Source of the DNA: a virus
Virus record (IMG/VR): IMGVR_UViG_3300010413_000011
Coordinates: 1-64,000 of that record
DNA length: 64,000 nucleotides
Reading direction: 5' to 3' (one strand)
The notes under the pieces were generated by a model. It did not search any database. It was not told the DNA's origin and was given only the letters and a program-made list of their open reading frames with translations. The translations under genes and the position numbers were made by a program. Every line of letters begins with the position of its first letter. The stretch's first letter is position 1. Positions 2-50,824 of the stretch are shown in pieces.

Positions 2-379
2 CATACAGCAAGACTATCGTTTTTAAATCAAATGGACAGTATTATCGAAGAGTATAATCGTTTTGATCCTATACTTTGTGGAATAGAGGCTAACGGTTTT
101 CAGTTTGTTATGTCTGATACTTTACGAACTCATAGTGATCTCCGAGTCACACCGATCACAACCTTAAAGGATAAAGAAAGTCGAGCATATAAATTTTCAG
201 CAGTAACCGAAGGTGGTCATTTATTTGTTAAAAGGAGTATGCATCGACTCGTTGCGGATTTAATTTCGTTTCCGAATAAAACAGATTTATTTGACGCCCT
301 CGATCTTGCTTATCAAACATCTAGAAAGAAGAGGCGTCGTAGGCTGCGAAGTCGCGAGGACGAACCCGGATTGATTTAA
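2..379 (+). CDS. terL: Terminase large subunit, C-terminal fragment (5' end outside window)
   Basis: The frame is open from the window edge, and the first ATG (position 32) has no ribosome site, so this is the tail of a longer gene. The visible ~125 residues resemble the end of the terminase nuclease domain: a GIEANGFQ segment, a DKESRA segment typical of the region that positions DNA, and a C-terminal FPNKTDLFDAL motif in which the Asp would supply a metal ligand. The protein ends in a basic, Arg-rich tail. TerL cuts concatemeric DNA and drives ATP-dependent packaging at the portal. The portal gene follows 15 bases downstream, the usual order. The identity rests on short motifs and gene order; the ATPase half is not visible. 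Confidence 0.75.
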   Translation, partial: HTARLSFLNQMDSIIEEYNRFDPILCGIEANGFQFVMSDTLRTHSDLRVTPITTLKDKESRAYKFSAVTEGGHLFVKRSMHRLVADLISFPNKTDLFDALDLAYQTSRKKRRRRLRSREDEPGLI

Positions 380-394
380 GAAGGAGGCTATGTT

Positions 395-2170
395 ATGACA
401 AAACGTTTTGTTAAAAAGGATGAGGCAACGAATGTTTCAATAACGGGACAAGAAATGATTGTCCCGATTGAGGAACGACTCGATCGCAGAACTGTTCTCA
501 AGGCAATGGTGATCGGACCTGACGAAGGACTTCCCTATTCCAAAAATAGTCCGTGGGATAATGCCTCTTTTCCTTATATAGAGCCACCGTTTGATTTATT
601 TCAATTATCTTTATTGCCAGAAAATAACGCGGAGCTGTCAGGTTGTATTGATGCCATGAAAATTAATATTGATAGCTTCGGTCATCGTTTTGTTCCGCGG
701 CCTTGGGTTAAAGATTCAGAAGAAAGTGAGGTCCAGGCGGAGCAACTCGAGTTGATTAATTTTTTCGATAATTGTAATCCAATCAAAACTTTCACAACTC
801 TTCGAGAGGATCTTAGGTCCGATTTGGAGAAAACCGGAATCGGTTTTTTGGAAGTTATTCCAAATTTGAAGGACGCTAGTAAAATTGAGGCCTTCGAACA
901 TTTGGAATCTTATACAATGCGACTAACTGGACTTGACAAAAAACCGATTCGGGTCACTTTCCAAAAATTAATTCTTACCAAAGATGGTCCTGAAATCAAA
1001 ACGGTTCCTACGTTAAGAAAATTTAGGAGATTCGTTCAATACAAAAACGGTAATTATGTATGGTTCAAGGAATGGGGCGACCCTCGGCAAATATCGATCG
1101 AGGATGGAACAGTTTCGGCAACCAAACTTCCTTACTCGAAGCAGGCCAACCCAGTTATATATTTCAAGATATACTCTCCTCGTTCACCGTATGGTTTGCC
1201 TCGTTTTATGGGATCACTCTTGACGATGTACGGGATGCGATCAGCGGAAAATATTAACTACGCAACACTTCATAACAATAATATTCCTAGCGTACTGATG
1301 TTAGTAGCTGGCGGCGCCTTAACTCCAGGTTCTGTCGATCGAATAAAAGAATTCGTTAACGCTAGTCGTACTGGAATGAATTTTAGTCGATTTTTAATCA
1401 TAGAAGCTGAACCCCTAGAAGAAGGATACGAAGCTTCTTCGTCTACTAAGGTTCAATTAAAGGCACAACCAATGGCAAACCAACAGAAAACCGACGCAAT
1501 GTTTGTCCAATATGACGACAAAGGCGCAGCGAAAATCAGGACGACCTTTAGAATACCAGGTATTGTCCTAGGAAAAGGAGAGAACTATGGAAGAGCAACG
1601 GCACTAGCTGGACTTCGCCAAGCGGATGAGCAGATATTTGGACCCGAAAGAGGAAAATTTGATGCCATCGTCGATAAGAGAGTACTGCTAACTCAAGGAT
1701 GGAAATACCATATGTATCGATCTAACGGACCAAGTACTACAGATAACACCGAACTCGCGGCCATATTGACTCGGGCTGAAAGAACTGGCGGTATGAATCC
1801 GAGAATTGCTAGGAAGATTATGAACCAAATTTTCGGTGAAGACCTCGGGAAGGTAACCAAAATAGATCCCGACATTCCGTTCACCTTACAATTGGCTGAA
1901 GCAGCTAAAAAATTGGCACCAGTAAACCAAGGTACGGTTGCAGGTATTACGGCACCCGGAGAACGGGCAGCTCAAGGAGTTGAAAGAGGAGTCGAAAAAA
2001 GAAAGCACGTGACGATAATAGTCGAGGAACTAAAACGACTTCGAAAAATGTTATCGGATGAAACCCAACCGGTTCTGGATGCGATCACCAATAAACTTTT
2101 AGAAGAGCAAGTTTCATTCGAGGAGGATTTCGATAACCTAGACGATCTTATGGAAGACTCAAATGTTTAA
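395..2170 (+). CDS. Phage portal protein
   Basis: A 591-residue protein with the hallmarks of the PBSX/HK97-like portal family: an N-terminal stretch describing an antigen-like clip region, a central segment (about residues 250-290) with SPRSPYGLPRF and repeated NYATLHNNNIP, and a long helical C-terminus. Twelve portal subunits form the ring at the capsid vertex through which TerL pumps DNA. A strong AAGGAGG site precedes the ATG. The gene overlaps the next gene by 8 bases, consistent with translational coupling. Its place directly between terL and the minor head gene supports the call. Confidence 0.88.
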   Translation: MTKRFVKKDEATNVSITGQEMIVPIEERLDRRTVLKAMVIGPDEGLPYSKNSPWDNASFPYIEPPFDLFQLSLLPENNAELSGCIDAMKINIDSFGHRFVPRPWVKDSEESEVQAEQLELINFFDNCNPIKTFTTLREDLRSDLEKTGIGFLEVIPNLKDASKIEAFEHLESYTMRLTGLDKKPIRVTFQKLILTKDGPEIKTVPTLRKFRRFVQYKNGNYVWFKEWGDPRQISIEDGTVSATKLPYSKQANPVIYFKIYSPRSPYGLPRFMGSLLTMYGMRSAENINYATLHNNNIPSVLMLVAGGALTPGSVDRIKEFVNASRTGMNFSRFLIIEAEPLEEGYEASSSTKVQLKAQPMANQQKTDAMFVQYDDKGAAKIRTTFRIPGIVLGKGENYGRATALAGLRQADEQIFGPERGKFDAIVDKRVLLTQGWKYHMYRSNGPSTTDNTELAAILTRAERTGGMNPRIARKIMNQIFGEDLGKVTKIDPDIPFTLQLAEAAKKLAPVNQGTVAGITAPGERAAQGVERGVEKRKHVTIIVEELKRLRKMLSDETQPVLDAITNKLLEEQVSFEEDFDNLDDLMEDSNV

Positions 2171-3224
2171 TATTGAGAAATTTGTAAAGCGACTCGACGA
2201 ATTGTCCGATCATCTAGGACTAGCTTGGTTTATGTCCGAAAGTGAAGAGTTTCTAGCCGAGTTTGGAAAAGTTGAGGAGGTTCCATTTCTTTCGAAACAG
2301 GCGACTACCAAAACGGCTGATGCGATACAAAAATCTTTAACTCCTGCTTTAAGTGGTCAATATAATCAAAACTACTCAATAGTGATCGATGATGCCTTAA
2401 ATGCCTTGGAAAAGAGACGACCTAGCGGAGTTTGGAGAAAATCGGATATCGACTTTGTAACCAATCGAGTTTCTAAAGGTCTTTCGAAATCTTTAATTCT
2501 CGATCCTAAATTAATCGATCCAGCTGCTTCCTCTCTGTATGAATTAGAGCGAATCGCTATGGCCACAGAATTAAAAACACCATTGAAGTTGAGTGGAGTG
2601 GATAGACAGCTTCAAAAATTTTTACAAGACAACTCTAAGTATTGGGCTTCGAAGCTATCAGACGGAATAGATCCTCGAGTCACCGATATCATTTCCAATA
2701 CTCTGGGTGATACGGAATTAACTAGAAAGAATTCGTTAACCAAATTAAGGAAAGATTTATTGTCAGACACAGGAGTGCGTGGTCGAAAGGTTATCCGACC
2801 ACCAGGTACCGTAATACCTCCTGGTTGGAAAGGTAGTTTAAAGGATTATTACACCGGAATGACCCAAAATTTAAGAACACAAGCACAAAGTCTTGCGAGA
2901 ATTACTACCTTCGAATTAGCAGGCGTTGAATCTTTTAGAGTTACCGCGATACTCGATAACCGAACCTCTGACGTTTGTCAATTAATGGACGGAACTGTTT
3001 TTAGTGTAGCAGACGGAATTAGACTTCGCGATAAAATTTTGGCTATGAACAGTCCCGCCGACTTAAAAGAGGTAGCCGGATGGCGGTCAGTTAATGAAAT
3101 TAAGAGTATAAGTAAGGCACGGGGCGGGAGGATTAGTGGGCCTGGGGCGTCCCGACTAGCAAAGGCTGGTGTTGCGTTGCCACCTTATCATTTCAGATGT
3201 CGAACTGAAATTGTACCTATATAA
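2163..3224 (+). CDS. Minor head / head morphogenesis protein (SPP1 gp7-Mu F family)
   Basis: A 353-residue protein whose last ~120 residues carry the family signature: helical RITTFELAG, then LDNRTSDVCQLMDGTVF, and a terminal PPYHFRCRTEIVP with paired Cys/His residues. This family sits inside or on the capsid near the portal and helps DNA delivery or head assembly. It starts inside the end of the portal gene (ATG after a GGAAG site), so the two are probably co-translated. About 100 bases of AT-rich non-coding DNA follow. Confidence 0.85.
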   Translation: MFNIEKFVKRLDELSDHLGLAWFMSESEEFLAEFGKVEEVPFLSKQATTKTADAIQKSLTPALSGQYNQNYSIVIDDALNALEKRRPSGVWRKSDIDFVTNRVSKGLSKSLILDPKLIDPAASSLYELERIAMATELKTPLKLSGVDRQLQKFLQDNSKYWASKLSDGIDPRVTDIISNTLGDTELTRKNSLTKLRKDLLSDTGVRGRKVIRPPGTVIPPGWKGSLKDYYTGMTQNLRTQAQSLARITTFELAGVESFRVTAILDNRTSDVCQLMDGTVFSVADGIRLRDKILAMNSPADLKEVAGWRSVNEIKSISKARGGRISGPGASRLAKAGVALPPYHFRCRTEIVPI

Positions 3225-3330: not shown

Positions 3331-4644
3331 ATGTCTAATGGGGATAACGAAAAAGTTGTGTCAATCTCTTCTGTAGAGAAGAGAGAAGTATCGAATTCTA
3401 TTAATTCGGTACTCGATCGGCTCGACGAACACGGCGAGGTACTTTTAGTTCCCGACTTCGTTTGTGCGGTCGGATCTTCTGTTACTAAAAATTCAACTGA
3501 ACCTTCCGATTCCGATCTAGACATTTTGTTTCGGCAAACCGATATCGACGAAAGTTTAATTTTAGCTTTCCATAAGGCTATAGGACGCGATTTAGAATTC
3601 CATGCCATTTTCAATCCTCGAGGACCGCACTCTGACTATATTGGTCTATTCGATCTCGTTTTAAAGAAAAAATCGGAATTCGTATATAAAATTCTCAAAC
3701 AAAAGGAACTCCAAGAAGAACCTGGACGAAAACCTACCGATCCTACTTCTGGTTTGACTATCAAAGAAGGCATGACAGGTCAATTTGTTATGCAAACTCA
3801 CAAACGGGGACAATCCGAACATACCGATCTACGACTTCATCCAACCTCGCCTAAAAAATACGAACATTTGGAAGGCGTAACTCTCAACACTCCAGGCTCT
3901 ATCGGAGAAAGGAATAAAGCACTCAATCCAGAGGGTAACGAAAAAATTCTTGTCGAGTTTAAAAAACCACAACCACTAGCATGGTTAAGGTTTGAAGGTG
4001 AAACGAAACCGGGAGAAGTCGGAGCCACAACCAATTATCCAGGTGTTTTTAAAATCGTCGACAAAGGATCTTGGAGAGCTGGAGTTCAAGAACCTCATTT
4101 CAAAGAATTTGAATTCGAAGGCAATCGATTTAAAGGGCGATGGATTTTAACATTCGCTCCGTTGCCTCGAGGCGGTGAACAAGTCCGGGTGTGGTTATTG
4201 TCGAAGCCTGAAGATCAGGTCTTAAACGCAGATAAAGAGAAGGAGGAAACCATAGAGAAACAAAAGGGCGAAGTCTCGATTGTAAAGATCGACGAATATC
4301 GCAGATTGGTAACCGGTGAAGTATTAGTACCTGATGAGTACGACAGTCAAGGCGACATCTATGATGAGAGAACAATAGAAGATGCGGCGCATGAGTTTTT
4401 GGCGAAATATCGCCAGGGAAGTGCCACCCTCGGATTCATGCATCAGCAACTCGACGTTCCTATAGAGTTGGTTGAGTCCTTCATCGCTCCAATTGCGTTT
4501 AATATAGAGGAAAAGAAGATAAAGAAAGGAACTTGGTTGATTACTGTCAAGATTTTGAACGATGCAATTTGGAATCACATCCTTGATGGTAACTTGACTT
4601 CGTTTTCAGTCGCCGGAAAGGCTCTTGCTAGGCCGGTTATATAA
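3331..4644 (+). CDS. Nucleotidyltransferase / LigD-phosphoesterase-like / XkdF-type protease fusion
   Basis: Three domains can be read in 437 residues. Residues 40-110 look like a nucleotidyltransferase fold: GSS at 48-50 followed by DSDLDIL, giving the paired acidic residues D62 and D64. Residues 150-280 resemble the LigD 3'-phosphoesterase: FVMQTHKRG, then EHTDLRL (H164, D166, R168), FEGETKPGEVG, and a terminal FKGRWILTF. The second-half His/Tyr usual in that fold seem to be replaced (VEFKKPQPLAW). Residues 318-432 match the XkdF/Peptidase S78_2 prohead protease: VLVPDEYDSQGDIYDERTI, H371 in GFMHQ, VESFIAP, KKGTW and a terminal LTSFSVAG Ser. The position before scaffold and capsid genes fits a maturation protease. 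What the two nucleic-acid-type domains do here is unknown. Confidence 0.75.
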   Translation: MSNGDNEKVVSISSVEKREVSNSINSVLDRLDEHGEVLLVPDFVCAVGSSVTKNSTEPSDSDLDILFRQTDIDESLILAFHKAIGRDLEFHAIFNPRGPHSDYIGLFDLVLKKKSEFVYKILKQKELQEEPGRKPTDPTSGLTIKEGMTGQFVMQTHKRGQSEHTDLRLHPTSPKKYEHLEGVTLNTPGSIGERNKALNPEGNEKILVEFKKPQPLAWLRFEGETKPGEVGATTNYPGVFKIVDKGSWRAGVQEPHFKEFEFEGNRFKGRWILTFAPLPRGGEQVRVWLLSKPEDQVLNADKEKEETIEKQKGEVSIVKIDEYRRLVTGEVLVPDEYDSQGDIYDERTIEDAAHEFLAKYRQGSATLGFMHQQLDVPIELVESFIAPIAFNIEEKKIKKGTWLITVKILNDAIWNHILDGNLTSFSVAGKALARPVI

Positions 4645-4675: not shown

Positions 4676-5437
4676 ATGACAACTGAATGCGAAGAACCAA
4701 AAGCCCGAAGGCGTAGGCTTCTGAAGATCGACGTCGATGAAATTTCGGTCGTCGACCAAGGGGCCAACAAACGGGAATATTTGGTCGTAAAAAACAGCGA
4801 AGGAGGTAACAAAGAAATGTCGGAAGAAGAGATCAAAAAGGATCAGACTGATGATAATTCTCCTCCGAACGACGATGACGGCAATATCGGAAAGAAAACC
4901 GATGTGAAAAAGGTGGATACCGAAGCCCAGGCCAGTTCGTCGAAGGATGAGAACGCGTCACAGACCGATCAGTCGGAAGCCGGCTCCGATGAGTCCGGAT
5001 CGTCCAATGACTCTTCCACCGAAAAAGTCGACGTCGAGAAACAGGAAGCTGCTCTTCGGAAAGTGATGGGCGAGGCCATCAAAATGATGGAACAGTTCAC
5101 CAAAAAGATGAAGGGTGCCCTCGACAAATCTTACGGAACGCCCGTGAAAAAGGAGGAAGTCAAGAAAGGCGCCTCCGAAGACGACGATCCGTTGGTAAGT
5201 CTTTCCGTTACCGTCCAGGAACTGGCGAAGAGATTCGATGAGCAGTTCCCACCCAAGAAGGCGGACAAGAAAGGCGACGACTCGGTGGAACAGGCGATCG
5301 AAAAAGCGATCAAACCTTTCAAGGACCGTATTAAGGAACTCGAGGAGTCCGTGGGAATCTCCAAGGGAGAGGAAACGGACGAGACCGACGCCCCGATTTC
5401 GAAAAAAGAGGGCGAAGGTTGGAACGGGATCCTTTAA
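4676..5437 (+). CDS. Scaffold-like capsid assembly protein, long form
   Basis: A 253-residue, highly charged protein: an N-terminal basic stretch, then IDVDEISVVDQGAN (residues 18-31), a low-complexity acidic and Ser-rich middle, and helical segments (about 123-150 and 170-230) likely to form coiled coils. Such composition between a protease and a capsid gene is typical of scaffolds that guide procapsid assembly and are later removed. The DEISVVDQGAN motif normally lies at the C-terminal end of XkdF-type proteases, so here it appears to have moved onto the scaffold's N-terminus. A GGGAGG site precedes this ATG. An internal in-frame start at 4817 probably makes a shorter form. Confidence 0.65.
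   Translation: MTTECEEPKARRRRLLKIDVDEISVVDQGANKREYLVVKNSEGGNKEMSEEEIKKDQTDDNSPPNDDDGNIGKKTDVKKVDTEAQASSSKDENASQTDQSEAGSDESGSSNDSSTEKVDVEKQEAALRKVMGEAIKMMEQFTKKMKGALDKSYGTPVKKEEVKKGASEDDDPLVSLSVTVQELAKRFDEQFPPKKADKKGDDSVEQAIEKAIKPFKDRIKELEESVGISKGEETDETDAPISKKEGEGWNGIL
4817..5437 (+). CDS. Scaffold-like protein, short form from an internal in-frame start
   Basis: At 4800-4810 lies a near-perfect Shine-Dalgarno sequence (AAGGAGGTAAC) six bases before an in-frame ATG at 4817. It would yield a 206-residue product lacking the first 47 residues, that is, lacking the IDVDEISVVDQGAN segment. Nested scaffold genes sharing a C-terminus with a longer protein are well known in lambda (C and Nu3). The ribosome site is as strong as those of the neighbouring capsid genes, so the short form may be the abundant one. 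This is inferred from sequence only. Confidence 0.55.
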   Translation: MSEEEIKKDQTDDNSPPNDDDGNIGKKTDVKKVDTEAQASSSKDENASQTDQSEAGSDESGSSNDSSTEKVDVEKQEAALRKVMGEAIKMMEQFTKKMKGALDKSYGTPVKKEEVKKGASEDDDPLVSLSVTVQELAKRFDEQFPPKKADKKGDDSVEQAIEKAIKPFKDRIKELEESVGISKGEETDETDAPISKKEGEGWNGIL

Positions 5438-5831: not shown

Positions 5832-7025
5832 ATGCCTACGAACGAAGAACTTATTCAAAAGGGAACGATCGTAGCAGAAGACCTGGCCGCGGCGGGAAAG
5901 CTCAATCCCTGGCAGTCAAACAAGTTTCTAGACTATGTGTTCGACGAAACCTGGCTCCGGAAGATTGCGCGGACCGTCAAATTCAAACCCGAGAGCGCCA
6001 AGATCGACAAAATCGGTGTTGGACGCAGGGTGGCGATGGCGAAGAAGTCTGCTACCGATCCTGGCAAACGGCGGAAGATCAGTACCTCTGCGATTGAACT
6101 GACGCCCCGGGAGATCATCGTCCCATTCGAGATCGAAGACGCCTTCAAAGAGATCAACATCGAAGGTGACAATGTCGAAGATCATATCATCAAAATGATG
6201 GCGACTCAGGCCGGCAACGACGTTGAGGAATTGTCGATTCGCGGAGATATACTCGGAGAGGCGGCGCTGGAAGGCGACCTGTTCGACGGAGGCTCCACGA
6301 CTCGGTATATCAAAGACGAATTCCTGGCCTTGGTCAACGGCTGGTTACGGCTCGCCGACAGCGGACACCAGGTGGACGCAGGGGGAACGGCAATCGAGTC
6401 TTCGATCTTTGGCGACTTGATCAAGGCCCTCCCTCACAAATTTTCCCGCGACAGATCCAAGCTGAAATTCTTCTGCTCTCCGACTCTGGAGCAGGAGTAC
6501 AGAGAAAAAGTGTCCACCCGTTTGACGGCAACCGGCGACGCGGCTTTGATGTCGAAGCTGAACCTCACTCCGTATGGGATCGAGTTGGTCCCTGTTCCGC
6601 TGTGGCCCGACAATCCGGTTGTGGTCGAGAACATCACAATGACTGGCACCGGCGCCCACAACTTGAGGTTCAACCATCTTCCGACGGCCGGGTCTTTCGT
6701 AGTAACCACCAGTACTCTCGCGGAAATCCCTGAGAATGCATATGCGGAAACGACCGACTACACAATCGACCGGACAGCCGGTACCATCACCAGAGTTGGC
6801 GGCGGATCGATCACCGATGGGCAGGTTGTCAAGGTCACCTACGAAACCGGACCGGTGGTCATCTTGACTCACATACAGAATTTCATCGTGGCCATTTCTC
6901 GGGACGTCAGGATCGAGAAGGACCGGAACATCTTCAGGACTGTCAACGAGTACGCGATCACCTTAAAAACCGATGTCCAGATTGAGGAAGTCGACGCGCT
7001 GGCCAAAGCTTCTAACATCGGCTAA
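5832..7025 (+). CDS. Major capsid protein (HK97-like fold)
   Basis: A 397-residue protein in the expected slot after scaffold and decoration genes, with a strong ribosome site (AAGGAGGA) before the ATG. Features fitting a HK97-fold capsid include an N-terminal helical arm (residues 1-45), an RRKISTSAIELTPREIIVPFEI segment resembling the E-loop and spine region, MATQAGNDVEELSIRGD in the spine helix, and IVAISRDVRIEKDRNIFRT near the C-terminus, typical of the P domain. Around residues 275-340 an extra beta-rich insertion (TAGSFVVTTSTLAEIP and following) may be a surface domain. Codon use is clearly more GC-rich than in most of the window. Confidence 0.85.
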   Translation: MPTNEELIQKGTIVAEDLAAAGKLNPWQSNKFLDYVFDETWLRKIARTVKFKPESAKIDKIGVGRRVAMAKKSATDPGKRRKISTSAIELTPREIIVPFEIEDAFKEINIEGDNVEDHIIKMMATQAGNDVEELSIRGDILGEAALEGDLFDGGSTTRYIKDEFLALVNGWLRLADSGHQVDAGGTAIESSIFGDLIKALPHKFSRDRSKLKFFCSPTLEQEYREKVSTRLTATGDAALMSKLNLTPYGIELVPVPLWPDNPVVVENITMTGTGAHNLRFNHLPTAGSFVVTTSTLAEIPENAYAETTDYTIDRTAGTITRVGGGSITDGQVVKVTYETGPVVILTHIQNFIVAISRDVRIEKDRNIFRTVNEYAITLKTDVQIEEVDALAKASNIG

Positions 7026-12216: not shown

Positions 12217-12810
12217 ATGACAATTTTATTTAAAGACGACGTTATTGTATTGAGAAAAAGTGATGTCCTTTTCGAAGGTAACATTAAGAATGCAGATCCG
12301 ATTCCTGTCATCGGAATCAGCGGAAAAAATTATAAATTATTCATTAGAGTTACTAATCCTGCAGCTTACCCAATAACAGTAGAGATAATTTTTTCAGTCG
12401 GCAATTATATCTTTACTGTTTCAGACTCTAATAATCTAAATCAAATATCTGATGACATTTTCACCGATCCCGCAACTGAAGTAGTAGGTGGTGGCAATTT
12501 TCCTTTCGATGTCGAACTAAGTCACCGAACACCAAGTAACGAGCCGATAAAACAATATGGTAATTTAGGCACGGTCCGAGGTTCCCTCCAAAGACAAACC
12601 GGACGACTAGTTATGACTACTCCTGGTGAAGACTCTCACCAGGTTAAATGGATTCATGTAGAGGATACAATTGAAATTAAATTAAAAGATTTACTACAAG
12701 TTGGAGGACAAAACTATGAAGTAATCGAAGTAAGTCATGTGGAATCAGCATTAACCAATATTATATCTTTTTACGAATGTAAGGTTGAATTGAGGGAAGG
12801 CCGATGGTAA
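12217..12810 (+). CDS. Head closure-like protein
   Basis: A 197-residue protein with ATG at 12217; an in-frame TTG at 12205 is an alternative, and neither has a strong ribosome site. The C-terminal ~90 residues (GTVRGSLQRQTGRL, then IKLKDLLQVGGQNYEVIEV and a terminal strand) resemble the small beta-barrel of head-closure or stopper proteins such as SPP1 gp16. The N-terminal half is an additional beta domain of unknown role. Its order after the adaptor and before the neck/terminator genes supports the assignment, apart from the intervening glycosyltransferase. Confidence 0.5.
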   Translation: MTILFKDDVIVLRKSDVLFEGNIKNADPIPVIGISGKNYKLFIRVTNPAAYPITVEIIFSVGNYIFTVSDSNNLNQISDDIFTDPATEVVGGGNFPFDVELSHRTPSNEPIKQYGNLGTVRGSLQRQTGRLVMTTPGEDSHQVKWIHVEDTIEIKLKDLLQVGGQNYEVIEVSHVESALTNIISFYECKVELREGRW

Positions 12811-15185
12811 ACATATTAATAGTTATACCGACATACAATAATATAGGCCACTTATCGAAATGTCTCAATTCGATAAACAAGTGCTCGCGTTACGAACCCG
12901 GGTTCTCTTTGGTCGTTGTTGTTGCAACCAACGGATGTGACGATGGAACTTCGGAACTACTCGAGCATTGGTCTAACAAATTGTCGAACAACCTAGACAA
13001 GAACCGACTTCAAATATTTGAGTTGTCTCTGGATCGCAATATGGGTTTCGCTATGGCAATCAATGCTGTCCTCGAAGGTCGTTCGCTCACCTGTTACGAA
13101 TTTGTTGTTCTATTGAACGACGACGTCGTAGTTACTCCGAGATGGCTAACTGGGATGGTTCAAGGTTTTCCTTGTTTCCCAGCGGTTGGAATGGTCGGAC
13201 CTGTCTCGAATGAGGCAATCGAGGCTCAGAAGGTCGACGATATTCCTCCAACTTTGATAGTAGCATCGGATGAAAATCTTTACAAGTACGCTCAAGATTT
13301 CAAAGCACTAAATACCGATATAAAACCATTTGTAACTGGTTTTATATCTGGTTTTTGTATGATGATTTCTCGAGAAGTTCTCCAACAAACTGGGTTTCTG
13401 GATGAGCGTTTCGGTCTCGGTGGGTTCGAAGATAATGATCTATGTCTTCGTGCTCTGGATCTGGGTTATATTTCGGTCGTCGTACCCAACGTCTTCGTGT
13501 GGCACTCTGGTCATATAACGATTAATCGTTTTCCTGAGATGAGACACGGGTTAGCTAATCGTCATCTCTTCTATAAGAAGTGGCATAATCCTGAAGTCCG
13601 AAAAAAGTTGTGTGTCCTCTACCGAGTTAGAGACGACGCCTACAATTTTAGCTGTAGTCTAAGACGAACCCTCGAGTTTACCGACTTCGTCGCCGTTCTC
13701 GACGACGGTTCGGAAATACTTCCTAACTCGAAAAAGTCAGCAATCCAAATCACCTGCGAAGATCTCGATCAAGGAACAAATCAAATTGTTTATTATCGCC
13801 AAGAGAAAGATTCCTCGAATGAAAGAGATGATCGGAACCGACTCATCCAAATGGGAAAAGAAACTGGTGCAGATTGGGGCCTTTTTCTAGACTCCGATGA
13901 AATAATCGAGAACTCTTTTACCCAGGAATACGTTCAGAGAATAATGAACAGCCCCGATCCTGGGGCTCGGGCGTTCGGATTTAATTGGTATACTTTTTGG
14001 GACGATAATAACTGGCGAGCAGATGGTATTTTCGGCAATATGTTCGGATTCAGAATGTTTAAATTGTCTGAAGGTCAATCGATAATAAGAGGAACCGAGC
14101 AAGGACTTCATTGCGGGAACCTCCCAGAGTTAGGTCCTAACACGAAAAAGATGACCAGTATTCGTATTAAACATCTTGGTTATGATACCGATGAAATCCG
14201 ACAAAGAAAATTCGAATGGTATGAAAATTTCGATCAAGACAGAACTCCAGAATTGGTTGGAGGAGAAAGTTATCGACATTTAATCGATAAACGAGGGGTC
14301 GAATTGAAACCTTGGATAGAGGAAAATGATATCGGTCTGTTTATGATTGTTCGCAACGAGGAGGATCAATTACACGAGGCTCTATCCGAGGTACATCAAT
14401 TCTTTACTCAATTAGTAATTGTCGATACCGGCAGTACCGACGCAACGAAAGAAATAGCATCGATGTATACCGACGAAGTTTATGAATTTGAGAAATTCGA
14501 TCCTGAGCTTCCCGATTTCAGTGCGGTTCGAAATTTTGCTCTATCGAAAATGACAACTCGGTGGGTGATGTTTCTAGATGCCGACGAAAGAATAACGGGA
14601 TCTCTGTTAGTTTCACTAAGAAGGTCACTCTCCGAGAGTCTCTATGATGCATTTGGTTTTCAAATCTATAATAGATTTAAAAATATGGACGTTCCTATCG
14701 TTACAGAGGCAGTTAGATTATTCTATAATCGGGAAGGTCTTGAGTTTAAAAATAAAGTCCATGAAACGATTACTGAAAGTATACAACAAATTCCAGACTT
14801 TCGAATCGGAACAGCTCCAATCCCAATTTATCATTTAGGTTATCTACGGAATCCGGAAAGGATTAAGGCTAAACATAAGGCATACGAAAAGGTATTACGC
14901 CAAGAGGATTCGGCTCTAGCGGACTTTTCGCTTGCTATGTCTAAACTCGAAGACAGTAATTTCGACGCCAAGGAAATTGAAGCGTTATTGGAAAAGGCTA
15001 TCCAAAAAGAACCAAATTTTTATCAAGCGAAAAGAGAATTAGCCTATATGTATCTCCGACTCTCGGCAGCCAACTTTCTGATGATTAGTCAAAAACTAAA
15101 ACCTGAACATCCGTTTGTAGTGGTGGCCAAAAAATACTTAAACACCCTTTCGAAAATGATTCCTCCGATACCGAGGTCAATATAA
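12804..15185 (+). CDS. Multidomain glycosyltransferase (three GT2-type domains)
   Basis: A 793-residue protein. Domain 1 (residues 1-270) is a GT-A glycosyltransferase of family 2: IVIPTYNN, the LLNDDVVV metal site, and GFLDERFGLGGFEDNDLCLRA. Domain 2 (about 275-480) has a second DSDE site (LFLDSDEIIE) and WYTFWDDNNW. Domain 3 (about 505-700) begins IGLFMIVRNEED, continues VIVDTGSTDATKE and LFLDADERI-type DAD, and resembles SunS/WaaE-like enzymes. The end is a helical, TPR-like repeat (about 710-790). It overlaps its neighbours by 7 bases and 1 base, so it is embedded in the neck operon. It probably glycosylates a virion protein or a host surface glycan. The acceptor is unknown. Confidence 0.8.
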   Translation: MVNILIVIPTYNNIGHLSKCLNSINKCSRYEPGFSLVVVVATNGCDDGTSELLEHWSNKLSNNLDKNRLQIFELSLDRNMGFAMAINAVLEGRSLTCYEFVVLLNDDVVVTPRWLTGMVQGFPCFPAVGMVGPVSNEAIEAQKVDDIPPTLIVASDENLYKYAQDFKALNTDIKPFVTGFISGFCMMISREVLQQTGFLDERFGLGGFEDNDLCLRALDLGYISVVVPNVFVWHSGHITINRFPEMRHGLANRHLFYKKWHNPEVRKKLCVLYRVRDDAYNFSCSLRRTLEFTDFVAVLDDGSEILPNSKKSAIQITCEDLDQGTNQIVYYRQEKDSSNERDDRNRLIQMGKETGADWGLFLDSDEIIENSFTQEYVQRIMNSPDPGARAFGFNWYTFWDDNNWRADGIFGNMFGFRMFKLSEGQSIIRGTEQGLHCGNLPELGPNTKKMTSIRIKHLGYDTDEIRQRKFEWYENFDQDRTPELVGGESYRHLIDKRGVELKPWIEENDIGLFMIVRNEEDQLHEALSEVHQFFTQLVIVDTGSTDATKEIASMYTDEVYEFEKFDPELPDFSAVRNFALSKMTTRWVMFLDADERITGSLLVSLRRSLSESLYDAFGFQIYNRFKNMDVPIVTEAVRLFYNREGLEFKNKVHETITESIQQIPDFRIGTAPIPIYHLGYLRNPERIKAKHKAYEKVLRQEDSALADFSLAMSKLEDSNFDAKEIEALLEKAIQKEPNFYQAKRELAYMYLRLSAANFLMISQKLKPEHPFVVVAKKYLNTLSKMIPPIPRSI

Positions 15186-30746: not shown

Positions 30747-31159
30747 TGACTGAAATAGCCAAAATAGATCTGAACTGGGCTCGCAACGTTTGGTGTATTG
30801 CAGGAGGAGGCCACCGGGTGATTTTACTGGATGACGCCTCTATTAAGTTGTTGTTGGACCCTGGCGGAGATATGACTCTCACAGTCCCGGTGGATTGGCT
30901 ATTGAAAGTCAACGATCAAGGATTAACGATGGTGGTTATTTCTGTAGCACTGTGGGAGCACGTTAGTTGGAAAACGGCGGCTCTCCGGGTGGCTAAAGGG
31001 GACAGCGGGAAAGGTTGTCTATACTACAAAAGGTCTGCTCTTAAATTATGGCGGATGCTTATCGAGGAGGTTTACGGGAGGAGGTCAGGGAATGGCACAA
31101 GAAGGTTCGCGCCGGTTTGCGAAAAAAGAGAAACCGGCAAGTGGCAAAAAGTTCGTTAA
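30746..31159 (+). CDS. Hypothetical protein from a leaderless-type promoter
   Basis: A 137-residue protein (138 if the preceding ATG is used). The N-terminal half looks like a small beta domain (NVWCIAGGGHRVILLDDASIKLLL, MTLTVPVDWLLKV) and the C-terminal half is basic and helical (KLWRMLIEEVYGRR). No family is recognised. It overlaps the next gene by 68 bases in another frame, and that gene's ribosome site (GGAGG) lies inside its end. Confidence 0.5.
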   Translation: MTEIAKIDLNWARNVWCIAGGGHRVILLDDASIKLLLDPGGDMTLTVPVDWLLKVNDQGLTMVVISVALWEHVSWKTAALRVAKGDSGKGCLYYKRSALKLWRMLIEEVYGRRSGNGTRRFAPVCEKRETGKWQKVR

Positions 31160-32684
31160 ACAAGGCAAGGTTAAAACCAAGGATGGTTGGCCAGTCAAGA
31201 GTGCTTGGCCAACAGAGAGAGGACGAGAATTAGGCACATGGCCTACGGCGGGAAGGTTCGAGTCTCTACCAGGAGATTACAGTACTGAGTACAGCGATCG
31301 AGAGTTAGTAGATCTCAAGGTACAATCTATGAAGAGAGCATTCGGATTAGTGGCACCAGAGGTTTGTGACGACAAAGAACTGCTTTCAGTACTTGCGAGA
31401 CTCGGGCCTAAGACCTTAGTCAAACTGACCGAGATCATCAGAGATCTCGTGCTGTTTTTAGCATATAGGTCGGACGCGCCAAAGACGGCTTTGGGCTTTT
31501 GGCTAAAAGGCGATGGAACCGTAAAGGTTAACAGGCCAGTTCATGCTGGCGGAAACAAAGGGCCTAAACGAAGGCTCGTAAAAAAACAAAGGAGGTTTAC
31601 GATGGCAAAGGGAAAGAAAAAAGAGTCCAAGAAAAAGGACGGCAAGAAAAAAGGGTCGAAGAAGGATGCGCTCAAGGGCTACACCAGAGACGACCTGAAG
31701 AAAATCGCGAAGGAAGTTGGCGTAAAGGTCAAAAAGTCGATGTCCGATGAGGAACTCGTCGAGGCTTTGGAAGCGGCTATTGGGTCCGTAGACCCGGACG
31801 AGTGCTCGTCCAAGGTTACCAAGTTCTACGGCGCTCTCGGCTATGTCATCAAGGACGATGACGACGAAGACGACTCCAAGAAAAAGAAGGGGAAGAAGAG
31901 CAAGAAAAAGTCCGAACCGGAACCCGAGGACGATGAGGACGAAGACGAGGACGAAGACGAAGACGAGGACGAAGACGAAGACGAAGACGAAGATGAAGAC
32001 GAGGACGAAGACGACTCCAAGAAAAAGAAGGGGAAGAAGAGCAAGAAAAAGTCCGAACCGGACGAAGACGAAGACGAAGACGAAGACGAAGACGAAGACG
32101 AAGACGAAGACGAGGACGACGAAGTCGACTCCGACGACGAAGAGGACGAAAGCGAAGCGACCGAGTTCGAAAAAGGCGACCGGGTCGTGGCAGAGATCGA
32201 GGGTGAGGACTACGCCGGCGAGATCATCAAACTGGTCGGCGAGGATGAGGCCAAGATCAAGTTCGATGACGGGGACAAGATGACCTTGGCTCTGTCGGAA
32301 CTCCGGGCCGAAGACGATGACGAGGAAGGCGACGAAGACGAAGACGAAGACGAAGACGAGAAACCCAAGAAGAAGTCCAAGAAAGGCAAGGACCGCAAGG
32401 CAGCGGCCGCCGAAAAGAAAAAGGCCAAAGAGGAGCGCCGGACCAAGATCGAAAAGGGAATCCCGTACTCTGACAAGGCTCTGAACAAAATGATCAGGCG
32501 GGAACTCCTGGTCCTGGCCAGCATACTCGGCGTCAACACCTGGGAACTGAAGGACACTGACAAAATCAGGGAAGCCTGCAAAAAGGCGCAGAAGAAAGGC
32601 AAGGGCGGCTCCGAGAAGTCCGAAAACAAGAAGGAAAAGAAATCGAAGGACAAAAAGTCCAAGAAGAAAAAGAGCAAGAAATAA
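31092..32684 (+). CDS. Long form of acidic SAP/Tudor-like protein with extra N-terminal domain
   Basis: A 530-residue reading frame starting at ATG 31092 behind GGAGG. Residues 1-170 form a basic, then helical, domain (DRELVDLKVQSMKRAFGL, LLSVLARLGPKTLVKLTEII) whose codons are AT-rich like most of the genome. From residue 171 the codon use becomes GC-rich and a second strong ribosome site appears, so the sequence reads like two genes joined in frame. Residues 171-530 are described under the short form. Both products may be made. The N-terminal part has no recognised family. Confidence 0.55.
   Translation: MAQEGSRRFAKKEKPASGKKFVKQGKVKTKDGWPVKSAWPTERGRELGTWPTAGRFESLPGDYSTEYSDRELVDLKVQSMKRAFGLVAPEVCDDKELLSVLARLGPKTLVKLTEIIRDLVLFLAYRSDAPKTALGFWLKGDGTVKVNRPVHAGGNKGPKRRLVKKQRRFTMAKGKKKESKKKDGKKKGSKKDALKGYTRDDLKKIAKEVGVKVKKSMSDEELVEALEAAIGSVDPDECSSKVTKFYGALGYVIKDDDDEDDSKKKKGKKSKKKSEPEPEDDEDEDEDEDEDEDEDEDEDEDEDEDEDDSKKKKGKKSKKKSEPDEDEDEDEDEDEDEDEDEDDEVDSDDEEDESEATEFEKGDRVVAEIEGEDYAGEIIKLVGEDEAKIKFDDGDKMTLALSELRAEDDDEEGDEDEDEDEDEKPKKKSKKGKDRKAAAAEKKKAKEERRTKIEKGIPYSDKALNKMIRRELLVLASILGVNTWELKDTDKIREACKKAQKKGKGGSEKSENKKEKKSKDKKSKKKKSKK
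31602..32684 (+). CDS. Acidic chromatin-like protein with SAP-like and Tudor-like domains
   Basis: A 360-residue product starting at an internal ATG preceded by AAAGGAGGT, as strong as any site in the window. Order: a Lys-rich start; a SAP/Rho-N-like helix pair (GYTRDDLKKIAKEVGVKV, SMSDEELVEAL); long Asp/Glu tracts interleaved with Lys-rich blocks; a small barrel resembling Tudor/SH3-like modules (FEKGDRVVAEIEGEDYAGEI and IKFDDGDKMTLALSEL); more acidic residues; a second SAP-like helix pair (IRRELLVLASILGVNTWEL); and a Lys tail. This combination suggests a DNA- or protein-organising role such as a histone mimic or nucleoid protein. Function is not established. Confidence 0.6.
   Translation: MAKGKKKESKKKDGKKKGSKKDALKGYTRDDLKKIAKEVGVKVKKSMSDEELVEALEAAIGSVDPDECSSKVTKFYGALGYVIKDDDDEDDSKKKKGKKSKKKSEPEPEDDEDEDEDEDEDEDEDEDEDEDEDEDEDDSKKKKGKKSKKKSEPDEDEDEDEDEDEDEDEDEDDEVDSDDEEDESEATEFEKGDRVVAEIEGEDYAGEIIKLVGEDEAKIKFDDGDKMTLALSELRAEDDDEEGDEDEDEDEDEKPKKKSKKGKDRKAAAAEKKKAKEERRTKIEKGIPYSDKALNKMIRRELLVLASILGVNTWELKDTDKIREACKKAQKKGKGGSEKSENKKEKKSKDKKSKKKKSKK
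31866..32061 (+). repeat. Exact 55-base direct repeat plus GAC/GAA tract
   Basis: The same 55 bases occur at 31866-31920 and 32007-32061, offset by 141 bases, so the reading frame is kept. They encode a DDSKKKKGKKSKKKSEP block. Between and after them lie runs of alternating GAC, GAA and GAG codons up to about 32120. The layout points to recent in-frame tandem duplication within the acidic gene. Confidence 0.85.
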
Positions 32685-37215: not shown

Positions 37216-37729
37216 CAAAGTAATAGACTTTATAGAAACTGATTTACCAAGGACCTACTATCCCGAAGGTGGGGTCTCTCCTGAACAATTACAACCGAAC
37301 GGAGTCGACTGTCGTTTATTTTTTGTAAGGAGAGTCGACCCGGATCGTATTATGATATTTCGTAAAAATGAGAAGGATGTACCAGAGCTGGAGATGGTCG
37401 AACCTATAATCCATAGGTCCTTTCATGAGCGCGACAAACAACACGCCTTTTTCAATTTGGAACCTGGGGCCTATAATTTTGAAATGGCCGAACGAATAAA
37501 AGTTCCTCAAGGTATTGCGGCAATGTTCTTTGGTCGGAGTACCCTTAACCGAAACGGAATACTCCTTTTGTCGTCGGTCTATGATACGGGTTATGACGGT
37601 AGAATAGGAGGGACGGCGTATGTCTGGCGGCGGATACAAATAGAAATGTTTGTTCGAGTCGGACAAATTGTTTGTTGGGAAGCTCACGAAACGAAGGAGT
37701 ATGACGGTCAATATGGCGACGGAAAGTAA
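37199..37729 (+). CDS. dCTP deaminase / dUTPase superfamily protein
   Basis: A 176-residue protein starting at ATG 37199 behind CAGGAG and overlapping the upstream gene by 17 bases. It shows the fold's signatures: GVDCRL near the start (about 35-40), FFGRSTLNRNGI (motif 2, with the Arg-Ser pair) and YDTGYDGRIGGTAYV (motif 3). Enzymes of this superfamily hydrolyse dUTP or deaminate dCTP and keep uracil out of DNA. A UDG-polymerase fusion directly follows, which suits that role. Confidence 0.75.
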   Translation: MILPGNKVIDFIETDLPRTYYPEGGVSPEQLQPNGVDCRLFFVRRVDPDRIMIFRKNEKDVPELEMVEPIIHRSFHERDKQHAFFNLEPGAYNFEMAERIKVPQGIAAMFFGRSTLNRNGILLLSSVYDTGYDGRIGGTAYVWRRIQIEMFVRVGQIVCWEAHETKEYDGQYGDGK

Positions 37730-40313
37730 ATGGCATAAGACTTCAATCGATCTTACTAGAAGTAAGCAGGGTCGTAAGACCTGTTTGAAGTGTCCTTGGT
37801 TTAAAAAGTTCGAGCAGGGAAAAACCGATTCGATCAACTTTTGTGTTGGCGGATACGGTTTAGTACCTGCCGATGTAATGATTGTTGGTGAGGCCCCGGG
37901 TTGGCCCGAGGCTAATGCGCGACCTCATCAACTTCATCCTTTCATGGGAGAGGATTCCTATATATTAGATTTCCTATTAAAAAAAGCAGGACTATCTCGT
38001 CGACAATTCTATATAACTAACGCTATCAAATGCAAACCTCTTCAATATGGCAAAGTCCCGATCGATATTGTTAACCGTTGTGCCTCACATCTTTGGTACG
38101 AAATAGAAATGGTTCAACCTAAATTAATAATTGCTCTAGGTGCTGACGCTCTCAAAGCCTTGACAGGTAGACCATTTTCGATAACACAGGAAAGAGGATT
38201 CAGGCGAACGTTTAGTGACTTCGTCAATTTAGAGAGAATAGGACTAGCTGAATCTAATTGGTCGGATCTCGAGGACGATTTCGGAGACATTTGGGTTTAT
38301 CCGATGAGACATCCTCATTTACTTTATAAAGATCCTAGATGGTTATCTACTTTTAAGTTCGACTTTAAAGAAATAAAACGGTTGATGAGAAAAGGATTTC
38401 CCGACCATAACGAACCACCTAAGATTAAAGTTACCGATACTCTAGAACGTTTCGAAGAATTCTATAAGGCGATTCAGAAGGCACCGGCTTACTCGGTCGA
38501 TACTGAAACGACCTCCACTAGTATGATTGATGCCAAAGCTCTCTGTATCTCCTTTTCATGGGGTAGAAAAAATACCTGGGTCGTACCACTGAGGGGCCAA
38601 GGAGGAAAAAGATTTTGGCAATCTGGTGCCGATGAAATTATTCGGAAGGACCTAAAACAAATTTTTAAGGAGAAAAATATTTATCGTATTGCTCAAAATT
38701 TTAAATTTGATTATAACGTTCTCCGGAAGGAAGGATTCGGTGAGGTTTATTTTGAGTTCGACACAATGACTGCTCATCACGTTATCGACGAGACCGGTCC
38801 TTACGATTTAGAAAATATTGCCAACTTTTACGGACTCGACCTTGGTTATTGGCCAGATTCGATTTGGAAATATACTCCTCGGAATAAAAAAGCTCAGTTT
38901 GCTGACATTCCAAATAAGATTCTCTGGCAATATACCGGAGTTGACGCGTGGACTACTTGGGAACTAGGTAAGCCGAACGGTGGTAGAGTTAGGACTGAAT
39001 TAGAGAAGAACCCTAATTTAGTTCGACTGGTTAAAGAAGTTACCTTCCCACTTTCTTATCCGTTAGCAGATATGGAATACTATGGAGTCAAGTTAAACCT
39101 AGATCGAATTGGGAAATTGGAAAAATTATATCAGAAAAAATTGGATATGATAACTGGTAGACTCCGCGTACTAGCGAATAAAGAAGATTTCAATCCCTTT
39201 TCTCCCGATCAAGTTATAGAATTACTATTCAATAAGTTGAAGATGACTACTAGAGGACTAACACCTGGTCGCAAACCAAAGACCGATGCCGATGTACTAG
39301 AGATAATGTTAAGAGAGGAACGGTCGCCCAAAAAGAGAACGATCCTTCGTCTCATAATTTTAGCTCGAAGTTACAGAGCAACAATTTCTAGAGAATTACA
39401 AGGGCTCCGAAAATTGGCTCCAGACGGAAATATAAGAACGACCTATTTGATTCCAGGAACCAGAACTGGTCGTCTCTCTTCAATAGGTCCCGACTTACAA
39501 AATGTCAAACGCGGTCCTGAAATCAGAAATTGTTTTACAGTAGAAGAGGACTCATTATTTGGAGGCGGTGACTACAAGGCGATAGAACTTCGACAAGCAG
39601 CGTTGTTAAGTGGTGACCCGGAGATGTTAGATATCTTTGAGAAGGGTATAGATTTTCATACAGTCACGACAGCTCGAGTTCGTAAAATACCAGAGGAGGA
39701 AGTTACCAAAGAACAGAGAGCACGAGGAAAAGCGGTTGTGTTCGGTGGAATAATGTATGGTAGATCGATTCAAACAATGGCCGACGAATATGATTTACCA
39801 TACGAAGAAGTAGAAGATATGATGGATGGAATAGCCGAGTTGTACCATGTATTCATGAAATGGCGTGAAAGCAATGTACGAGAGGCGAAAGAAAAGTTTT
39901 ATTTGGAAACGGCTTTTTGGAAACGGACTAGACATTTCCCTGCTTTCGAGATGATCGCGGATAGTAGATTGGCTAAGGTTCAGAGATTAAGGAATCAGTT
40001 AGGTCGCGAATTCAAACAGACGGTAGAGAAAACTGTTCGAGAATGTTACAATTATAGGATTTCCTCGCCGGCTGCCGATTGGGTTAATAAAGGAATTATT
40101 AGGCTTCATACTCGACTTCGCGAAGAGAATATGAAAACCTATTGTTTAATGCAAGTTCATGACGCGCTGTATTTGAGAGTATTTAAAAAAGAAGTTTTAT
40201 TCGTTAAACAGTTGATTAAAGAGGAAATGGAAACCACCTTGAGGTATAAAGGCAATAGACTTAAATTAGAATTTGATACTGAAATGGGAAGGTGTTGGGA
40301 TGAAAAAGAGTGA
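37713..40313 (+). CDS. Uracil-DNA glycosylase / family A DNA polymerase fusion
   Basis: An 866-residue protein from ATG 37713 (an ATG at 37701 is also possible; AAGGAG precedes both). Residues ~20-230 are a family 4-type UDG with iron-sulfur ligands C24/C27, C107 and C123, plus GEAPG (59-63) and TNAIKCKP. Residues ~250-440 are a 3'-5' exonuclease: VDTETTS, NFKFDYNVL, YTGVDAWTT. The rest is a Pol I core: GGDYKAIELRQ (motif A), RARGKAVVFGGIMYG (motif B, with Phe at the O-helix site) and MQVHDALYL (motif C, with Ala where most Pol I enzymes have Glu). SPO1-type polymerases also carry a UDG-like domain. This is the replicative polymerase. Confidence 0.88.
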   Translation: MATESKWHKTSIDLTRSKQGRKTCLKCPWFKKFEQGKTDSINFCVGGYGLVPADVMIVGEAPGWPEANARPHQLHPFMGEDSYILDFLLKKAGLSRRQFYITNAIKCKPLQYGKVPIDIVNRCASHLWYEIEMVQPKLIIALGADALKALTGRPFSITQERGFRRTFSDFVNLERIGLAESNWSDLEDDFGDIWVYPMRHPHLLYKDPRWLSTFKFDFKEIKRLMRKGFPDHNEPPKIKVTDTLERFEEFYKAIQKAPAYSVDTETTSTSMIDAKALCISFSWGRKNTWVVPLRGQGGKRFWQSGADEIIRKDLKQIFKEKNIYRIAQNFKFDYNVLRKEGFGEVYFEFDTMTAHHVIDETGPYDLENIANFYGLDLGYWPDSIWKYTPRNKKAQFADIPNKILWQYTGVDAWTTWELGKPNGGRVRTELEKNPNLVRLVKEVTFPLSYPLADMEYYGVKLNLDRIGKLEKLYQKKLDMITGRLRVLANKEDFNPFSPDQVIELLFNKLKMTTRGLTPGRKPKTDADVLEIMLREERSPKKRTILRLIILARSYRATISRELQGLRKLAPDGNIRTTYLIPGTRTGRLSSIGPDLQNVKRGPEIRNCFTVEEDSLFGGGDYKAIELRQAALLSGDPEMLDIFEKGIDFHTVTTARVRKIPEEEVTKEQRARGKAVVFGGIMYGRSIQTMADEYDLPYEEVEDMMDGIAELYHVFMKWRESNVREAKEKFYLETAFWKRTRHFPAFEMIADSRLAKVQRLRNQLGREFKQTVEKTVRECYNYRISSPAADWVNKGIIRLHTRLREENMKTYCLMQVHDALYLRVFKKEVLFVKQLIKEEMETTLRYKGNRLKLEFDTEMGRCWDEKE

Positions 40314-40737: not shown

Positions 40738-41640
40738 ATGCCAAAGAAAAAGGAAAAAAAGAAGGGCGGTAAAAAGAGTCTTATTGAAGAGGTTCAAAAG
40801 ACTCTGAAGGAACAAAATCGCAAGAGTGCCGGAGCGATGTTCGGCGACACTTCCATTTGGACTCCGGGTAAAGGGACCAATAAAATTCGGATACTACCGA
40901 GTTGGAACCCAGACGAAACTCCGGTCTTCTACAAAGAAGTTGCCTACCATTACTCGGTAGGACCTGATGAGTCGATTGTCATGTGTCCTCAAAGGATGGC
41001 CGGTAAACGGTGCTTCATCTGTGAGCAGGTCAAGGAGCTAAAAAAGGCAAAAGGCAAAGGAGCGAAGAAGGCAAAGGCTATCATCGAGAAGGTGAGAGCA
41101 AAGGGAAGAATTCTCTACAACATCGTGGACCTCAACGACAAAAAGGCTGGGATTCAGGTCTTTATCTCTGGACCAAAGATTTTCAAGGAATTGTTATCGA
41201 TGGTCATTGATGAGGATATCGGAGACATCTCCGACCCGAAAGAGGGATTCGATATCAAAATCATCCGCGAAGGTGAAGGTCTCGACACCGAGTACAGGGT
41301 CCGGGCCGCTGCGAAGGCAACAGCAATCAAGAAAAAGGCTTGGCTAAAAGGCCTGAACGATCTCGACGCTCTGGCTGGTGATCTCCCGAGTTATGAGGAT
41401 ACCAAGGCGGCTTGGGAAGGCGAAGACGAAACGGACGACGAAGAGGATGACGACGACGAGGAAGCAGACGACGAAGAGGATGACGACGAAGACGAAGAGG
41501 ATGACGACGAAGACGAAGAGGACGAGGATGACGAAGACGAAGAGGACGAGGACGACGATGAAGAAGATGACGATGACGAGGAAGAAGAGGAGCGTCCGAA
41601 GAAAAGTAAAAAGAAAAAGAAGGGAAAGAAAAAGAAGTAA
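40738..41640 (+). CDS. Single-stranded DNA-binding protein, gp32-like, with long acidic tail
   Basis: A 300-residue protein with AAAGGAGGT before its ATG. Residues ~45-220 resemble the T4 gp32 core: NKIRILPSWN, KEVAYHY, a CPQRMAGKRCFICEQ segment with three Cys that could hold zinc, and GRILYNIVDLND. The N-terminus is Lys-rich, as in gp32's cooperativity region. From ~225 the chain is almost pure Asp/Glu for about 55 residues and then ends in a Lys block (KKSKKKKKGKKKK), unlike known SSB tails, which end acidic. It coats ssDNA at forks and partners with recombination proteins. Confidence 0.72.
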   Translation: MPKKKEKKKGGKKSLIEEVQKTLKEQNRKSAGAMFGDTSIWTPGKGTNKIRILPSWNPDETPVFYKEVAYHYSVGPDESIVMCPQRMAGKRCFICEQVKELKKAKGKGAKKAKAIIEKVRAKGRILYNIVDLNDKKAGIQVFISGPKIFKELLSMVIDEDIGDISDPKEGFDIKIIREGEGLDTEYRVRAAAKATAIKKKAWLKGLNDLDALAGDLPSYEDTKAAWEGEDETDDEEDDDDEEADDEEDDDEDEEDDDEDEEDEDDEDEEDEDDDEEDDDDEEEEERPKKSKKKKKGKKKK

Positions 41641-42570: not shown

Positions 42571-42572
42571 CC

Positions 42573-43550: not shown

Positions 43551-43551
43551 A

Positions 43552-49349: not shown

Positions 49350-49525
49350 AAGTAGTCGCAACACAACTAAAACTCGAGAACATAGAAATTCTCCACAATG
49401 CGAAGAAGGGAGATACGCTCTCCCTAAAAATAATTAATACGCAGGAAGTGCCACTTGATGAAGACGGACTCGACCCAGACAGCTGTCTCTTGGTTCTCTT
49501 CGGACGATTGGGAACCGGGAACTAA
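49346..49525 (+). CDS. Small hypothetical protein overlapping the DpdA-like gene
   Basis: A 59-residue product whose ATG overlaps the stop of the ThyX-like gene (ATGA). It overlaps the start of the next gene by 68 bases in another frame. The first ~45 residues look like a small beta domain (VVATQLKLENIEILHNAKKGDTLSLKII). No clear ribosome site is seen, so translation would depend on coupling. It may not be real. Confidence 0.4.
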   Translation: MKVVATQLKLENIEILHNAKKGDTLSLKIINTQEVPLDEDGLDPDSCLLVLFGRLGTGN

Positions 49526-50597: not shown

Positions 50598-50824
50598 TGG
50601 CAACCTCGTATTTTAGAGGTCACAAAGGTTGGTACGACAATATTGAAAAAGTATGGAAGTATTTCGATACCAATCTTCCTATCGATCCTCGTCGCCCTTG
50701 TGTCCGATGTGGTAAAGAACCCACTCCCGAAGGTCATGACGCGTGTTTGGGACGGCTAGACGGTGCGTGGTCAGCCTGTTGTGGTCATGGAGTAATAGAA
50801 CCATATTTAAAAATTACATTATGA
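50597..50824 (+). CDS. Small zinc-binding protein between the DpdA-like genes
   Basis: A 75-residue protein whose ATG uses the last base of the preceding stop. Cys/His-rich: CVRCGKEPTPEGHDACLG (about 35-52) and SACCGHG (about 59-65) could bind one or two zinc ions. Similar short proteins with the pattern CxxCGxxPTxEGxDACLG occur in many phages without known role. It is overlapped on both sides by DpdA-like genes, suggesting a partner. Confidence 0.6.
   Translation: MATSYFRGHKGWYDNIEKVWKYFDTNLPIDPRRPCVRCGKEPTPEGHDACLGRLDGAWSACCGHGVIEPYLKITL

Follow-up and report, generated by a model that had tools for sequence, protein, structure and literature searches.

A viral prohead protease joined to nucleotidyltransferase and LigD-phosphoesterase-like domains

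The 92.7-kb IMG/VR record IMGVR_UViG_3300010413_000011 represents a tailed virus for which metagenomes are the only source, and its positions 1 to 64,000 form the stretch of DNA analysed here (hereafter referred to as the window). Close to the start of the window, one open reading frame (ORF) encodes a protein in which a nucleotidyltransferase (NTase) domain, a LigD-type 3′-phosphoesterase (PE) domain and an XkdF/T4 gp21-type prohead protease domain follow one another, with about 310 residues lying N-terminal to the protease part (Table 1). The ORF begins with an ATG codon preceded by an SD-like GGAG, contains no internal stops and has a coding-like codon-position composition. The individual domains are already known, and we found no description of the NTase–PE–XkdF combination in the open-licence literature.

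The fusion gene holds the usual locus of an XkdF prohead protease, between the MuF gene and the scaffold and capsid genes. The acidic protein on its downstream side, whose N-terminus is similar to the head of XkdF proteins, probably serves as the scaffold, and a small ORF lies between its gene and that of the major capsid protein. The latter protein is about 54% identical to the major capsid proteins encoded beside XkdF-fused, ligase-bearing modules in three other contigs (L080, L093 and L098). An apparent C-terminal end of a terminase lies at the start of the window and an N-terminal part within the final 1 kb of the record (which ends at 92700); one terminase gene thus seems to be divided between the two ends, and the record may represent an almost complete genome that was opened inside this gene.

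Table 1 Features of the fusion gene and its head-gene neighbourhood in the window
Feature	Positions	Strand	Basis
Terminase large subunit, C-terminal end (tentative)	32..379	+	Precedes portal; sequence; matching N-terminal part at 91672-92700
Portal protein	395..2170	+	phrog_12, E 5.8e-24
MuF-type minor head protein	2163..3224	+	phrog_115 / phrog_241, E ~1e-10; Pfam Phage_Mu_F, E 8e-4
NTase–PE–XkdF fusion protein, 437 residues	3331..4644	+	Single ORF; three-domain AlphaFold model; relatives with matching domain order
Minimal Pol-beta-type NTase, residues 24-128, D62/D64 and D108	3400..3714	+	Family profile; residue counts; MNT-like fold, Z 3-5
LigD 3′-phosphoesterase-like domain, residues 149-290	3775..4200	+	TIGR02777; family profile; LigD-PE structures; residue counts
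Charged flexible linker between PE and protease, residues 291-316	4201..4278	+	pLDDT below 50 over residues 274-313
XkdF / Peptidase_S78_2 prohead protease, residues 317-431, H371 and S426	4279..4623	+	PF14550; T4 gp21 structure
Acidic, coiled scaffold-like protein	4676..5437	+	phrog_3017, E 2e-7 over profile 3-48; position
Major capsid protein	5832..7025	+	phrog_1623, E 2.4e-76; matches annotated major capsid proteins

Domain assignments and the altered phosphate site

PHROGs matches for the window protein cover its protease part only. Because public libraries detect the NTase only marginally (Pfam Polbeta, E 0.075; NCBIfam MntA, E 0.14), we collected relatives and built NTase, PE and XkdF profiles from the viral members with the window sequence left out. 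On these profiles, the window protein scored 45 bits for the NTase (against 6.5 bits for the best of 2,000 shuffles), 114 bits for the PE and 113 bits for the XkdF domain. An AlphaFold model based on 60 aligned sequences has three confident domains with low-confidence linkers between them. Foldseek returned nothing under E 0.001 for either the three-domain model or the NTase alone, and structural comparisons were made by running VIA-align on the PDB chains of Foldseek's list. The profiles, the model and the PDB comparison bear out the three domains that a preliminary description of this DNA had proposed, and the residues it named (GSS, DSDLD, H157, H164, D166 and R168) are present.

By its sequence, the C-terminal domain is certainly an XkdF protease. 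Pfam Peptidase_S78_2 (PF14550) matches residues 317 to 431 with 91.3 bits (cut-off 24), the catalytic H371 and S426 are kept in 28 of 28 cases, and the best PDB match of the model is the T4 gp21 protease (5jbl; Z 9.2, r.m.s.d. 2.8 over 113 residues, spanning residues 313 to 437). The domain, its catalytic His/Ser and its locus before the scaffold and capsid genes are thus shared with XkdF proteases and T4 gp21, whereas an ordinary XkdF, that of Pseudomonas phage NoPa, is a stand-alone protease of 154 residues. The annotation of that NoPa gene as a "DNA methyltransferase" was considered as a precedent for a methylase–XkdF fusion and set aside as a likely misnomer, as the small gene is mostly an XkdF match. 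In the window protein, the linker ahead of the protease is a candidate self-cleavage region. Within it, at positions 4236 to 4255, a strong SD-like AAGGAGG lies a few bases before an in-frame ATA codon and ahead of the XkdF domain; this may be chance codon usage, or possibly an internal start yielding free protease.

The PE domain is matched by the NCBIfam model TIGR02777 (LigD_PE_dom) over residues 134 to 296 and nearly the whole model (E 9.3e-8), at scores below the curated cut-offs of this equivalog model (32 versus 144 bits) and of PF13298 (13.8 versus 31.1 bits). In the structural comparison, in which T4 gp21 ranked first, ranks 2 to 6 were taken by LigD-PE structures aligned to residues 145 to 292, comprising the bacterial and archaeal domains 3p4h (Z 8.4), 3p43 (8.1), 3n9b (6.8) and 5dmp (6.6), together with 2lj6 (4.7). 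The preliminary description had named a missing structural match of residues 150 to 280 to the LigD PE as the result that would speak against it; five such structures match. The key residues of the window PE are H157, H164, D166, R168, K211, Q214, W218 and E259. The first three correspond to the LigD manganese site (His42, His48 and Asp50) and are invariant in all aligned rows with letters at these positions, and R168, the counterpart of LigD Arg52, is retained in all family rows but one. The phosphate site, by contrast, differs from that of LigD: in counts that are alignment-based and take in related sequences, the position of His84 (Q214 in the window) is Gln in 26 and Glu in 23 of 57 rows (49 of 57 for either), that of Tyr88 (W218) is Trp in 56 of 57, the Lys three residues ahead of the His84 position (K211) is kept in 55 of 57, and a downstream Glu is invariant.

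Mutation of the residues His84 and Tyr88 inactivates the P. aeruginosa LigD PE (reviewed in PMC8656161). Because both residues are replaced family-wide around an invariant metal site, their replacement, as judged from the alignment, is a conserved alternative active-site face and not decay in one protein. The preliminary description had taken the missing second-half His and Tyr as an apparent loss, after which the domain may bind rather than cut. The two residues are indeed absent from the window protein, but their absence is not a loss of its own, and binding in place of cutting is possible for the whole family and does not point to decay in this member. The window PE departs from the common family residues at three positions (H to K258, F to E261 and R to T274). 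By its predicted fold and metal site, the domain belongs to the LigD-PE superfamily; by its phosphate site and its scores relative to the curated cut-offs, it would lie outside the enzyme family. The LigD phosphoesterase superfamily now reaches the head genes of viruses, a context that also sets these domains apart from the LigD enzymes, and does so with a consistently altered phosphate site.

For the NTase modelled alone, the best PDB matches were the minimal nucleotidyltransferases 1no5 (Z 5.1) and 8xeh (Z 4.7), and in this test of the Pol-beta palm fold the first nine structural rows were all minimal NTases, at modest Z scores of 5.1 to 3.2. The Pol-beta motif set, consisting of G-[GS], a pair of Asp residues and a third Asp, is complete in the window protein (GSS, D62, D64 and D108); family-wide, the Gly and the first Asp are conserved in 48 of 48 sequences, the second Asp in 47 of 48 and the third in 28 of 47. 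The domain may be polymerase-like (TdT/Pol mu), as a sequence match suggests (E 0.12), or MNT-like, as its fold suggests. Protein rather than DNA can be the target of MNT-type NTases.

Relatives and architecture of the module

When 50,697 annotated phage records were searched by tblastn with the PE part, the ANMV-1 virus was the sole match. We scanned viral and genome contigs with patterns (a degenerate form of the conserved PGEVGATxxxPG motif) and with profiles, and found the module on about 70 contigs, mostly viral and nearly all unannotated; as one of the 70 apparently occurs in two collections and several are near-identical, they represent fewer independent lineages, and the counts given here come from motif-biased scans, with stop-to-stop ORFs as the gene calls at each locus. 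Among 18 motif matches in genome contigs, 14 were dropped because they were unrelated proteins or the motif lay outside any open frame; the four relatives belong to MAGs carrying the labels Archaeoglobales, Euryarchaeota, Thermoplasmata and Dehalococcoides. Genomes seldom contain the module, since only 3 of 301 matched in an even draw from the phylum of the Dehalococcoides MAG.

The commonest domain order is NTase, ATP-dependent ligase, PE and a second PE, arranged in one chain of up to 2,000 residues or in two to three adjoining ORFs. A DNA ligase is present in most relatives, its KxDG lysine being retained in 44 of 45; further domains include a Dam-type methylase and a metallo-beta-lactamase (MBL) fold, and visual inspection of the L074 and L078 sequences showed a UDG-like stretch. 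XkdF and PE occur together on 38 contigs, in the same ORF on 25 and in neighbouring ORFs on 13; in the latter, the module forms an ORF of its own ahead of XkdF, so that not every member is physically linked to the protease. Wherever the genes are visible, their order is portal, MuF, module, XkdF and capsid. The NTase–PE and PE–XkdF junctions are seen again in independent contigs (L009, L022, L074, L078, L098 and others), and the same domain order, which the preliminary description had suggested looking for in other phages, is found in other viral contigs. An assembly or sequencing error joining separate genes, which that description had also raised, is refuted by this recurrence and is disfavoured by the single, coding-like open frame; we regard it as hardly credible and the fusion as genuine.

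The closest PE–XkdF relatives of the window protein (L081, L074 and L078) all retain the ligase, and searches of the 92.7-kb record gave no match to a ligase (PF01068, PF01653) or Ku (PF02735). On the simplest reading of these sequences, the window protein would be a reduced member whose fuller ancestor had the ligase and the second PE, both since lost. In L013 and L032, too, the ligase is a remnant or absent, and it was undetected in L057; the NTase and the PE, which stay where the ligase is reduced or absent, therefore form the durable core of the module.

A comparison with known systems places the family in context. The ANMV-1 virus of methane-seep archaea encodes, directly after its portal gene, a protein annotated as an ATP-dependent DNA ligase (AJP62006.1; KP703175), in which the unannotated NTase and PE are homologous to those of the window protein (29% identity for the PE); it differs in having a ligase and a second PE and in carrying no XkdF domain in the ORF. 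Like LigD (POL–PE–LIG, prokaryotic NHEJ), the fuller relatives join a PE, an ATP-dependent ligase and a nucleotidyl-transfer domain, but they have a Pol-beta-type NTase in place of the AEP polymerase, a protease fusion and no Ku, and the window member has no ligase. Polyvalent proteins, known from phages and conjugative elements and described in the part of Iyer et al. 2017 (PMC5512222) available to us, are multi-domain chains with Pol-beta NTases beside portal and MuF genes, as in the window; among the domains named in that part, the LigD PE, DNA ligase and XkdF protease do not appear. The window protein is likewise a multi-domain, head-associated virus protein, encoded among the head genes of a phage of the portal-terminase type; like polyvalent proteins, it may also be packaged in the virion and injected.

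Possible handling of DNA ends in the phage head

In HK97-type heads, protease and scaffold are assembled together into the procapsid. We read the window protein, at a little under an even chance, as a head-assembly protein in which a DNA/RNA 3′-end-handling module is attached to the prohead protease. The protease would probably enter the procapsid with the scaffold, bringing the NTase and the PE inside or to the portal vertex, and might then cut the flexible linkers (residues 129 to 140 and 291 to 316), leaving both domains with the DNA. The NTase would add nucleotides there, and the PE would trim 3′ ends in a metal-dependent manner or capture them, and genome ends would in this way be repaired or protected, during packaging or just after entry. 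Since the record yielded no ligase, sealing in the window virus would have to fall to that of the host.

This end-handling reading is backed by the kept catalytic residues (the DxD of the NTase, the ligase lysine, the H/H/D of the PE and the His and Ser of the protease), by the constant head-gene order with XkdF fused or next in 38 of 38 contigs, and by the DNA-directed character of the co-occurring modules (ligase, Dam-type methylase, and UDG-like and MBL stretches). The preliminary description had tied nucleic-acid domains to a capsid maturation protease, and the DNA ligase of the relatives, in the same chain or operon, strengthens this tie. Against the reading count the PE without the LigD His84 and Tyr88, the variable third Asp of the NTase, the lack of ligase and Ku matches in the record, the 13 split ORFs, and the possibility that MNT-type NTases target proteins.

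In the first minutes of infection, a linear phage genome has to come through nicks, damaged ends and circularisation, a task often left to host enzymes. Our observations suggest that head building and a DNA-repair kit are linked in some viruses. If the coupling is real, phage particles would bring along, or recruit, DNA-end repair of their own, and protease fusion with self-cleavage would be a route for loading enzymes into phage heads. In a fuller version of this idea, which we consider somewhat unlikely, the module would be a virion-borne end-joining kit: a virus-assembled, LigD-like set of Pol-beta NTase, ATP-dependent ligase and modified PE, arisen independently of LigD's AEP polymerase, would be loaded into the head through the maturation protease and would heal and join genome ends while the genome is delivered or immediately afterwards, the window virus being a stripped, host-ligase-reliant case. 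In support of the end-handling reading, a capsid maturation protease is present in purified virions of phage Corndog (PMC4351075), and infection by Omega and Corndog is reported to make use of phage Ku and host LigD (PMC7719229), a precedent for a viral need of end joining.

Other readings explain parts of the same evidence. The head-borne domains could be injected conflict effectors in the manner of polyvalent proteins, acting on host or defence targets after ejection, with the MNT-like NTase modifying a host protein or RNA and the PE, methylase and UDG countering defence or repairing the damage it inflicts. The location next to MuF in a phage of the portal-terminase type agrees with the setting given in PMC5512222, the NTase fold is nearest to MNT proteins and the modules are shuffled among relatives; however, the recurrent partner is a DNA ligase, which points to DNA over a host protein, and no effector-type domain was recognised, and we judge this reading distinctly unlikely. 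The same low grade seems right for repair at the packaging stage, in the cytoplasm or at the portal, where the polyprotein would be cut before closure and concatemer nicks and gaps mended for the terminase with nothing retained in the virion. Adjacency to portal and MuF, the combination of ligase with end-processing domains and the split ORFs in 13 contigs agree with it, whereas the recurrent fusion to the protease would be left unexplained and the window member has no ligase.

A non-enzymatic role, in which the NTase and PE are former enzymes that now extend the protease at its N-terminus as a DNA-binding or scaffold-like part, would accommodate the replaced His84 and Tyr88, the three departures of the window PE and the loss of the ligase here and its remnant or undetected state in L013 and L032. 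It has a slim probability in our view, since the H/H/D set, the Arg, K211, W218, E259 and D62/D64 are conserved in very divergent sequences, beyond what a spacer needs.

Other genes of the record

The virus is rich in base-excision-type functions: positions 37650 to 40313 encode a family A DNA polymerase (PF00476, E 2e-69) with an N-terminal uracil-DNA-glycosylase (UDG) domain (PF03167, E 4e-19), and a second UDG lies at 90297 to 90971 of the record (L107). Positions 43522 to 46079 hold a complete-looking aldehyde ferredoxin oxidoreductase (PF02730, PF01314) and, behind it, a 4Fe-4S ferredoxin, and a radical SAM protein (42567 to 43550) precedes them; such metabolic genes are unusual in a phage and point to an anaerobic host. 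A UbiX-type flavin prenyltransferase-like flavoprotein (PF02441, E 5e-36) is encoded at 89064 to 89696 of the record (L107:5565-6197).

Two tandem paralogous genes without a Pfam match occupy 49455 to 51843, and a stretch homologous to them forms the N-terminal part of the ligase–PE–XkdF protein of L095. L023 has a weak DpdA-like match, and a link of the tandem genes to 7-deazaguanine DNA modification is possible. A sulfatase-family protein is encoded at 61609 to 62679 (E 1.8e-28), and among the tail genes a double glycosyltransferase (12804 to 15185) has a full-length relative in L057 (31% identity). The proteins encoded at 31092 to 32684 and 40738 to 41640 carry long Asp/Glu and Lys repeats, with acidic low-complexity tails in a lysine-rich context.
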